A stretch of DNA of 64,000 nt from the NCBI GenBank assembly GCA_944321825.1, contig CALUMU010000010.1, forward strand, positions 1-64,000, given 5' to 3'. A model generated the notes under the pieces. That model had not been told where the DNA came from and searched no databases. It worked only from the letters and a program-made list of their open reading frames with translations. Numbering within the stretch: the first letter of the stretch is position 1; every line of letters begins with the position of its first letter. The stretch comes from Candidatus Amulumruptor caecigallinarius. Its GTDB lineage: Bacteria > Bacteroidota > Bacteroidia > Bacteroidales > Muribaculaceae. Below are positions 5,186 to 51,638 of the stretch, in pieces. The translations under genes and the position numbers were made by a program.

Positions 5186-6047
5186 GTTCTATCAGATACT
5201 GGCCGTAAGCATTGTTACGCATCGGTTCGGCAAGTTCACGCAGGCGTTGGGCATCTATGAATCCTCGGCGGAAAGCTATTTCTTCCAATGCGGCCACTTT
5301 GAAGCCTTGGCGCTTCTCGATGGTTTCTATGAAGTTGGATGCTTCCATGAGCGAGTCGGTGGTGCCGGTGTCGAGCCAAGCGAATCCGCGGCCAAACTGC
5401 TGTACATTCAGTTTGTCTCTCTTCATGAACACCTGATTGACGGTCGTGATTTCCAGCTCCCCACGTGCCGACGGCTTGATTTCATGGGCGATGTTGACCA
5501 CTTCGTTAGGATAGAAATACAATCCTACCACTGCATAGTTTGTTTCGGGTTCTTTGGGCTTTTCTACGATATTGACTGCCTTGCCTCGATTATCGATGGT
5601 AACCACGCCGTAACGTTGTGGGTCTTTGACTTTGTAGGCAAAGATGGTGGCTTCCTTGCTGGATGCTGTGCGTTCCACTGCTTGCCTCAGCATCCCAGTG
5701 AAGCCCTGACCGTAGAATATATTGTCGCCGAGCACGAGGCATACGTCGTCATCGCCGATGAAATCCTTGCCGATGATAAATGCCTGTGCCAGCCCTTCAG
5801 GGCGTGGTTGCTCTGCATAACTGAAATTCACGCCCATTTCCTTGCCGTCGCCGAGCAGCCTTTGGAATCCGGGTAGGTCGTGTGGGGTGGATATAATCAG
5901 TATGTCGCGGATTCCGGCAAGCATGAGTACAGATATGGGGTAATACACCATCGGTTTGTCGTAAATCGGCACAAGCTGCTTGGATATGCCGCGTGTGATG
6001 GGGTAGAGGCGTGTGCCGGAACCTCCGGCCAATACTATTCCTTTCAT
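5163..6047 (-). CDS. rmlA: Glucose-1-phosphate thymidylyltransferase
   Basis: 294 aa from the ATG at 6047, where the conserved [16 protein letters not shown] nucleotide-binding start begins; an upstream in-frame extension of 25 residues has no family counterpart and was rejected. Other conserved stretches are KPMVYYPIS, a VLGDNIFYG segment with the metal-binding aspartate, and EKP near residue 160. It makes dTDP-glucose from dTTP and glucose-1-phosphate, the first step before RmlB. The gene lies 49 bp after rmlB in a leftward operon. Confidence 0.96.
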
Positions 6048-6096
6048 GTCAGTGGGTGGAAGTAGGGTGTTTTCGGGGTATGGGGTGTTTTCGGAT

Positions 6097-7299
6097 TCAA
6101 CGGTTGCCGTACATCTGGTCATAATACTTCTGGTATTCGCCTGATGTGACGCTTTCGACCCAGTCCTGATTGTCGAGATACCAGCGGATTGTCTTTTCGA
6201 TGCCTTCGGTAAATGGTGTTTCGGGATACCATCCCAGTTCGGTGGCTATCTTCGTCGGGTCTATTGCATAACGCATGTCGTGACCCGGACGGTCGGATAC
6301 ATACGTGATGAGGTCTTCGTTGATTTGCTCCGGGGTTATCCCCTTGAGCAGAGCCTGATATTTGGGTTCTTCGCGCATGATGCGGCCGATGATGCTGATG
6401 ACAAGACGCACGATGCTGATGTTTTGCTCTTCGTTGAAGCCGCCGATGTTGTAGACTTCGCCGATGCGGCCGTTACGCAGCACCATGTCTATGCCCTTGG
6501 CGTGGTCCTCGACATAAAGCCAGTCGCGCACGTTGTCGCCCTTGCCGTACACTGGCAGTTTTTTCCCTTCAAGTATGTTTTTGATGATAAGAGGGATGAG
6601 TTTTTCGGGAAAATGGTATGGTCCGTAGTTATTGGAGCAGCGGGTGATGTTGACGGGCATACCGTATGTTTCGTGATATGCCTGGGTAATCAGGTCTGCT
6701 CCGGTCTTGGCTGCGGAGTATGGCGAACGAGGGGAGAGGGGGGTGTCCTCAGTGAAAAATCCGTGGCCGAATGTCTGTAGGTTCGTGCGCCCTTTGACCA
6801 CTTCCTTGACTGCATCTGTAAGATGCAGGGGCTGCGGCTCGGCAAAGTCTTTGGGAAGTGAGCCGTACACCTCGTCCGTGGAAATCTGCAGGTATTTTTT
6901 CCCTTCGCGGTAGCGGTTGTGCCCGTTTTCATCCTTTCCGGCAAACCACGCTTCGCGTGCGCAGTCGAGCATGTTCTGTGTGCCGAGGATATTTGTCTCC
7001 AAAAACAGTCGGGGGTTTTCTATGCTGCGGTCCACATGGCTTTCGGCGGCGAAATTCACTACGAAGTCCGGATCGAATTCGTTCATTATCTTTGTTACGA
7101 GCTCGCGGTCGCCGATGTCTCCTTTGACAAATGTGACGTTTGGAAGCTTAATCTCATCTTTGATTGTCATCGGATTGCCGGCATATGTCAATGCGTCCAA
7201 TATGACTATTTCGACATCGTTGCCCCATTTCTTCAGCAGGTATTTCACGAAGTTGGCACCGATGAATCCGGCGGCTCCTGTAACGAGATATTTTTTCAT
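6097..7299 (-). CDS. rmlB: dTDP-glucose 4,6-dehydratase
   Basis: A 400-aa extended short-chain dehydrogenase. The Rossmann GAAGFIG motif is at residues 8-14, [12 protein letters not shown] follows, STDEVYG supplies the catalytic Thr-Asp-Glu, and YSAAK the Tyr/Lys pair. It converts dTDP-glucose to dTDP-4-keto-6-deoxyglucose. It is somewhat longer than enterobacterial RmlB (about 355 aa) because of extra loops after about residue 115 and before [10 protein letters not shown], which is common in Bacteroidales. It heads the sugar operon. RmlC and RmlD are absent here, so the branch shown goes to a 3-amino sugar rather than rhamnose. Confidence 0.95.
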
Positions 7300-35885: not shown

Positions 35886-35920
35886 TGCTGTTGAGTTTTT
35901 TAGTTGAATGTTGAGTTTTT

Positions 35921-35965
35921 ATGAATCCTATGAATCCTATGAATCCTATGAATCCTATAAATCGT
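35921..35965. repeat. Tandem 9-bp repeat upstream of the exporter operon
   Basis: ATGAATCCT is repeated four times (35921-35956) followed by a variant ATAAATCGT. It lies 36-80 nt upstream of the plug-only gene start, in its leader or promoter. Confidence 0.85.
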
Positions 35966-35998
35966 ATAATTGAGTCTTGAGATAGCGTTGGCTAAGTT

Positions 35999-47859: not shown

Positions 47860-49779
<1,920 letters not shown>

Positions 49780-50059: not shown

Positions 50060-50098
50060 AAAAATAGCGCCCCACCATGTTGCGGCGCTATTTTTTTT
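50060..50098 (+). terminator. Terminator of the small winged-helix gene
   Basis: AAAATAGCGCC pairs with GGCGCTATTTT and runs into eight T. Confidence 0.85.
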
Positions 50099-50190: not shown

Positions 50191-50295
50191 ATGTTAGTCA
50201 AGACCATTATCCTCAGCAAAGACATCGGCCGCTACGACAGCTGCCCCCACGGCTGCCTCTACTGCTACGCCACAAGCGTCAGCACAAGCATGTAA
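50191..50295 (+). pseudogene. C-terminal remnant of a DUF1848 protein
   Basis: The frame encodes SKDIGRYDSCPHGCLYCYAT near its end, the typical C-terminal cysteine motif of DUF1848 proteins (usually about 300 aa). The rest of the gene is missing upstream. A TIR-bounded repeat element begins ten bases after its stop. Confidence 0.7.
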
Positions 50296-50305
50296 AACAA
50301 TTATA

Positions 50306-50500
50306 GAACTGATTTAAATTTATTGCGAATTAACATTTCGCGGCTGGTTTCGAGGTGTTTTTGAGCTTTCTAAGGAGCGATGGGGTTCCATCGTGACCGA
50401 TAAAAGCGAAGAAAACGGACGGAAACAGACCGAAAGGTTAACACAAAGGGTTGCATCAGTTCTGGATTTAACATTTTGAAATAAGTTTAAATCAGTTCAT
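50306..50500. repeat. About 195-bp element with GAACTGATTTAAA-type inverted ends (MITE-like)
   Basis: The left end 50306-50319 is inverse to 50486-50499. The right end region 50465-50500 is nearly identical to 13995-14030. The interior has a GATGGGGTTCCATC hairpin (50377-50392) and no coding potential. It lies between the DUF1848 remnant and a phase-variable-looking promoter. Confidence 0.65.
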
Positions 50501-50555
50501 AGGTTTTAAAGTTGGTCGTGATTTGCTAATTGGATTATTTGTATAAGTTTCATTT

Positions 50556-50616
50556 TTTGTTAAAAATAAAAAATAAAAAATAAAAAATAAAAAATAAAAA
50601 ATAAAAAATAAATTTG
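50556..50616 (+). promoter_or_regulatory. Promoter with heptamer-repeat spacer (candidate phase-variable)
   Basis: TTTG at 50556-50559, then seven TAAAAAA units (50560-50608, exactly 49 nt; the first unit is TTAAAAA), then TAAATTTG at 50609-50616. The Bacteroidetes consensus spacing is 19-21 nt; loss of four units would leave 21. The ATG is at 50646. Confidence 0.65.
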
Positions 50617-50645
50617 TGTATTAACCTTTTTAAATTTATGCGCTA

Positions 50646-51638
50646 ATGAAACGAACCATGATGCTAAGTGTAGCTGTAACTACTCTTCTCGCCACAGCTC
50701 AAACCCCGGTGATTGACATGTTTGGTAAATATGCAATGCCCACCCCGGTGCTTTCGTTGGATGACTTCGGTCTTAAAGGTGACGTGAAGCAGGTGGTAGA
50801 GAAAGTCTATGGGGATGACGGTAACAGGAAGACATATACGTTTGCCAACAGGATGCTTGTGGAGTCAAGTGACGAGACCAAGACTCCATGGAATGATGGG
50901 AGCGTGATTGACCGTGTGACATATTTGATAGGCAACGGAAACAGATGCGACACAATAATAGATTATAACTATTCCGTTGGAAATGATTTATTTGGCAACC
51001 GTGAAACCAGCGAGAGCTACACACTCAATGTACTTTCATATAACGATAAAGGACAGATTAGTGCTATTCGGGAAATCCCGGCAAACTATATCAACGGTGC
51101 GTTAGTGCCAAAAGGAAGCACGGATGACATGGCCTGCGGTATGTACGTACCGCATGGTTCGACTGCTCCTCGACAAAATACCCGTCAGATTGCGGCTGAA
51201 TATTTTTATGGCACCAACGGAGCTCTATCCGAGATATACGATGGCAGATCACGCGCAGTGGACGGCAGAGGTGCATACTATTTCGCTAACGGACGCCTGA
51301 AAAGCATTGACACGAAAAAAACGGTAGTCAGGTCGCTCAACGAAGCGGTTCTCGCATATGACGCTGCCGGGAGGCTTGTTAAGGCGGTAGAAGTCGTTGG
51401 AGGTACTGATGTAAGCTATAAGCAGACCACTACCATTGTTTATAATACCAAGGGGCTGCCCGCCAAAATCACCGTCAAAATCCCGGCTTACGACAGCCCT
51501 GAAGGGTGGCAGGCGGCAAGTACGACCGTAACTACCATTACCTACGCATACGATACTGTCGGCAACTGGATAAAACGTACCGAGACACAGGGTAGAGGAA
51601 AAAACGTGATTATCCGCGATATTACATATCAGGAATAA
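50646..51638 (+). CDS. Secreted protein with YD/RHS-like beta repeats
   Basis: 330 aa. Signal peptide (MKRTMMLSVAVTTLLATAQ), then strand pairs with YD-type signatures: SYNDKGQISAI, YDAAGRLVKA, VYNTKGLPAKI and AYDTVGNWIKR. These resemble single units of RHS/YD beta-cage proteins, but the total is too short for a cage and no toxin domain follows. Function unknown; surface location likely. The repeat-driven promoter suggests ON/OFF expression, as for surface antigens. Confidence 0.7.
   Translation: MKRTMMLSVAVTTLLATAQTPVIDMFGKYAMPTPVLSLDDFGLKGDVKQVVEKVYGDDGNRKTYTFANRMLVESSDETKTPWNDGSVIDRVTYLIGNGNRCDTIIDYNYSVGNDLFGNRETSESYTLNVLSYNDKGQISAIREIPANYINGALVPKGSTDDMACGMYVPHGSTAPRQNTRQIAAEYFYGTNGALSEIYDGRSRAVDGRGAYYFANGRLKSIDTKKTVVRSLNEAVLAYDAAGRLVKAVEVVGGTDVSYKQTTTIVYNTKGLPAKITVKIPAYDSPEGWQAASTTVTTITYAYDTVGNWIKRTETQGRGKNVIIRDITYQE

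Follow-up and report, generated by a model that had tools for sequence, protein, structure and literature searches.

A TAAAAAA heptamer array between the boxes of a candidate promoter in Candidatus Amulumruptor caecigallinarius: spacer microsatellite or switch?

An array of seven-base repeats lies between the two boxes of one candidate promoter in a 64,000-nucleotide stretch of Candidatus Amulumruptor caecigallinarius DNA (the whole of which is referred to here as the window). A sequence-only reading had taken this arrangement for a candidate case of phase variation by promoter spacing, in which slippage could turn the downstream gene on. With modest confidence, we favour a plainer account: the array is a microsatellite that has grown by slippage and fills the spacer of what is probably a weak promoter, and it is incidental rather than a selected switch. 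Phase variation of the spacing type is an unlikely alternative here; its premise, that a spacing of 21 nt works, is unsupported by this genome.

Phase variation in the Bacteroidales, as it has been described, proceeds mostly by DNA inversion, and the open-access literature (incompletely covered) yielded no case in Bacteroidota of promoter spacing altered by a simple repeat. A proven case, if this were one, would widen the range of phase-variation mechanisms known in the phylum. The census of promoter spacings that is described below provides a simple means of judging further candidates.

The array and its neighbourhood

The array occupies positions 50560-50608 on the plus strand. Direct reading shows its 49 nt to be one imperfect unit, TTAAAAA (50560-50566), followed by six perfect copies of TAAAAAA (50567-50608); seven TAAAAAA heptamers had been claimed, of which six stand and the seventh is the imperfect one. 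Tandem Repeats Finder describes the array as period 7, 7.3 copies and 100% matches with a score of 102, the highest in the window, and (TAAAAAA)3 is found at this site only in the 2.63-Mb genome. The array is therefore real, and a chance origin is excluded. It is bounded by the candidate -33 box, TTTG (50556-50559, plus strand), and by the candidate -7 box, TAAATTTG (50609-50616, plus strand); the TAAA that follows the last perfect unit continues the array and is part of the latter box. Direct reading also confirms that the two boxes are exactly 49 nt apart, and the tandem array thus has the position, between the two boxes of one candidate promoter, that characterizes promoter-spacer repeats. 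That the units are perfectly identical points to slippage in the recent past or still under way, and copy number would then vary. The array is probably slippage-prone; as a place to look for slippage it is a good candidate, and as a switch a putative one.

The array is located in the intergenic stretch between dnaK (HSP70; 47860-49779) and an efflux operon. A terminator-like hairpin followed by a T-run lies 3' of dnaK (50060-50095, plus strand; fold -16.6 kcal/mol, z -2.2), though a consensus terminator scan of the plus strand does not list it; its presence suggests that the next gene needs a promoter of its own. Further along is a 193-bp MITE-like element (50306-50498) with 19-bp inverted ends (GAACTGATTTAAAYTTATT; 50306-50324 and 50480-50498), of which the genome holds ~12 near-full copies and many fragments. 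This element ends 58 nt upstream of the TTTG/array promoter and is apparently separate from the array, which none of the other aligned MITE copies has. Inversion of the promoter was considered and rejected: the inverted repeats close by belong to this multicopy MITE as its ends, and they lie upstream of the promoter without enclosing it. The sequence-only reading had likewise set the locus apart from inversion. Just before the MITE, a 34-aa open frame with SCPHGCLYCYA (50191-50295) looks by eye like a radical-SAM (DUF1848-like) gene of which only the beginning is left.

The gene that follows the array (50646-51638, plus strand) encodes a 330-aa, probably exported RHS/YD-repeat-like protein that is an orphan in the sampled genomes. 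It had been called a secreted YD-repeat protein: by eye, the N terminus is indeed signal-peptide-like, and the single RHS/YD repeat match is borderline. (A single-sequence structure prediction gave a pLDDT of 32.7 and was set aside.) No relative of the protein was found in 59 further genomes from the order, in plasmids, or by a peptide-pattern search of GTDB species contigs and viral contigs. Weak partial matches occur in 4 of 396 other family genomes sampled; for two of these matches the DNA before the ORF was inspected, over 120 nt in G126 and over the available 81 nt in G324, and neither has an array there. The one same-genus genome lacks the gene, and its synteny with the window breaks off directly after dnaK. 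Thus, gene and array together lie in a lineage-specific stretch.

(TAAAAAA)3TAAA is present in 3 of 397 genomes of the family: this one; G030, where it is at the 3' end of a gene; and G219, where it forms inverted copies after a gene. Neither of the other two occurrences has a promoter role. (In G219, on contig 179 at ~6000-6131, locus L021, inverted TAAAAAA/AGATAAC-type heptamers make up a large potential hairpin after the gene, at the contig end.) The shorter pattern (TAAAAAA)2TANNTTTG marks 83 stretches across 84,980 species genomes. Among the 80 of these that were examined in detail, the Bacteroidota cases (classed by record title) all have two units, and the sole longer array, of five units, is from Methylobacter. 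The combination of array and promoter is private as far as sampled.

Seven loci from that comparison (L033, L045, L059, L064, L065, L087 and L108) are Flavobacteriaceae/Flavobacteriales genes with similar exported N termini, and have in common CTTTGTGAT...TTTAACA ~34-35 nt before a TAAAAAATAAAAAATANTTTTG-type box. This shared layout has the look of a conserved promoter rather than of an array that is expanding. In the genome of Ca. Amulumruptor, short tandem arrays of other kinds are common between genes. They include dispersed, mostly intergenic 9-bp tandem arrays, (AGGANNCWT)n, some of them followed by an inverted copy: at 35920-35967 of the window (minus strand) and on contig 1 near 23088, 50120, 53270, 59409, 78952, 181083, 194953 and 198309. 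Runs of three or more AGGA with a period of 9 nt number 10 in 464 kb (0-2 for ten other 4-mers), and there are none with periods of 6-8 or 10-12. The copy in the window precedes by 35 nt the ATG for a 243-aa protein that has a signal peptide.

Promoter grammar and the spacing census

Spacings were counted by pattern searches over the whole genome; promoter-matrix and tandem-repeat statistics were drawn from a sample of 464 kb, made up of the window and 400 kb from contigs 1 and 2. A scan for the sigma-70 consensus was set aside, since this genome does not follow that consensus. Pairs of the form TTTG-N12-28-TANNTTTG number 367 genome-wide and 133 in the reversed control. The Bacteroidota consensus therefore holds in this genome, as the sequence-only reading had supposed. 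The same reading had put the consensus spacing at 19-21 nt, a range that the census does not support. The genome has 76 pairs at a spacing of 20 nt (4 in the reversed control) and 48 at 19 (7 in the control). At 21 there are 19, several of which are near-identical copies of one sequence, to be compared with 16 in the reversed control and with a background of 12.4 per spacing (372 pairs in total at spacings of 35-64). The working optimum is 20, then 19, and 21 is near background. Seven-base steps from 49 lead to 42, 35, 28, 21 and 14; they never reach 19 or 20, and reaching 21 entails the loss of four out of six perfect units. Support for the proposal that slippage could turn the gene on is poor, since the promoters of this organism hardly use the sole "on" distance within reach.

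How much weight should be placed on each half of the candidate promoter? TAAATTTG is, by direct reading, the only TANNTTTG site in 50499-50645, that is from the MITE to the gene. Its end is 29 nt from the ATG, within the commonest range of 20-40 nt, as fits a sigma-AB-type promoter. Its flanks score low. We regard its identification as a -7 box as plausible. The -33 half is another matter. No TTTG or TTG lies 19-20 nt upstream of TAAATTTG, where AATA/AAAT is found instead, the nearest TTTG being the one 49 nt off; with the array as it stands, the -33-position bases rank in the bottom 4% of comparable sites. The prediction that the present array is OFF or weak is accordingly a fair guess as regards weakness, because there is no usable -33 match at 49 nt. 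The missing -33 box suggests a promoter that is weak, not necessarily dead, at the present copy number, since only ~35% of pre-gene TANNTTTG sites in the sample have TTG at 19-21 (some of these sites being chance matches).

The presence of TTTG beside the array is weak evidence for design, because a compatible TTTG often arises by chance and the real one gives only 21. The T-rich 56 nt upstream of the array contain three TTTG, and in dinucleotide shuffles of that sequence a TTTG that some copy number would bring to 19-21 arises in 25% of cases, and one that would come to 19 or 20 in 16%. (With average intergenic composition instead, a TTTG compatible with 19-21 appears in 5% of shuffles.) For the real TTTG at 50556, 21 is the only one of the three distances that can be attained.

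The consequences of changing copy number were computed with a small matrix (61 sites) combined with the genome's own spacing weights. Since the matrix was trained on sites with TTG at 19-20, it is biased toward requiring a -33 box, and the predicted scores should be read with that in mind: 12.8 for TAAATTTG with two perfect units (spacing 21), which despite the spacing penalty ranks at the 76th percentile among 173 real upstream regions, and an unchanging 2.2 from three perfect units up to nine. For reference, the median is 5.4 for real upstream regions and 0.9 for shuffled ones, the 75th-95th percentile of the latter being 3.7-8.1. A switch, if there is one, would have a single ON allele in this model, and the present array is four units removed from it.

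What the array might do

Phase variation of the spacing type would have slippage move TTTG and TAAATTTG closer together or further apart, with the gene ON at 21 nt and OFF in every other allele. We consider it unlikely, even with both boxes in place, a slippage-prone array between them, a gene product that appears exported and a modelled score that falls from its two-unit value as soon as the spacing is longer. The near-background use of 21, the inaccessibility of 19 and 20, the number of units that would have to be lost and the ease with which a phase-compatible TTTG turns up by chance all tell against it; the searches turned up no relative in which the gene is accompanied by an array, and the other Bacteroidota sampled have two units at most against a TANNTTTG box. 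Very doubtful, in our judgement, is a Bacteroidota contingency locus with a heptamer array picking the promoter spacing, one ON copy number among many OFF, an exported YD-repeat-like protein and no recombinase. Control might instead be graded: the -7 box would work without a proper -33 box, and the A+T-rich array would act from upstream or from within the spacer, basal promoter activity being tuned by its length. The low proportion of TANNTTTG sites with a TTG in the right place is consistent with this, as is the report that a -33 motif could not be found in F. johnsoniae (PMC7366714), and more heptamers do give less transcript at hmw1A of H. influenzae (PMC8262952). The very poor standing of the -33-position bases among comparable sites argues the other way, and graded control likewise strikes us as improbable. 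A start farther upstream, which we think quite unlikely, would use another sigma factor or a weak alternative promoter at 50511-50541 (plus strand): GTTG, 19 nt and an imperfect -7 box, ATTATTTG, at 50534. The array would then fall in the 5' UTR, where its length could affect the message, and the P2 transcripts of hmw1A do have their heptamer array in that position (PMC8262952). At the present allele no candidate scores better than GTTG-N19-ATTATTTG (3.8 with one matrix, 5.2 with another), but these scores are ordinary when set against the real median and the upper range of shuffled sequences, and ATTATTTG is a poor -7 match (AT for TA).

The reading of the array as an incidental microsatellite runs as follows. 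A (TAAAAAA)n tract, lineage-specific as far as sampled, would have grown by replication slippage in a fast-changing intergenic stretch between dnaK and the efflux operon, where it came to abut directly the plausible -7 box of a lineage-specific RHS/YD-repeat-like gene whose product is probably exported. The promoter through TAAATTTG would be weak and copy number would drift by slippage, most changes leaving the promoter match unaltered; on this account the array is more probably a by-product than a selected switch. The private character of gene and array, the MITE nearby, the non-promoter arrays of G030 and G219 and the frequency of other short tandem arrays between genes of this genome speak for an incidental origin, as do the near-background use of 21, the chance occurrence of TTTG and the flat score at three to nine units. 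Against it stand the layout, a perfect array exactly between the boxes and a short distance before an exported-protein gene, which is that expected of a contingency locus, the percentile predicted for the two-unit allele, and the perfect identity of the units, with the variable copy number that it would bring.

Relation to known promoter-repeat systems

In H. influenzae hif, with (TA)n, and in Neisseria porA, a repeat tract between the boxes of one promoter alters their distance, and the variation is proven. The units of such repeats are 1-2 bases long, so that the spacing crosses its optimum by small increments. The candidate promoter described here is like them in having its repeat tract between two boxes of one promoter, but its 7-base unit hits only 21, off the optimum of 20. 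The invertible promoters of the Bacteroidales provide phase variation on promoters of the TTTG/TANNTTTG type (PMC8748976); in contrast to their inversion between inverted repeats, the inverted repeats here are MITE ends, with the promoter outside them. Of the systems on record, hmw1A of H. influenzae comes closest. At hmw1A/hmw2A an (ATCTTTC)n array lies between promoters P2 and P1, its ends overlapping their boxes; copy number is ~13-24, varying among strains, and expression falls stepwise with length (PMC8262952). The two systems share a seven-base repeat in the promoter region with ends that overlap boxes, the hmw gene product being a surface protein. They differ in the class of sigma factor, and in that the TAAAAAA array is placed between the two boxes of one candidate promoter.
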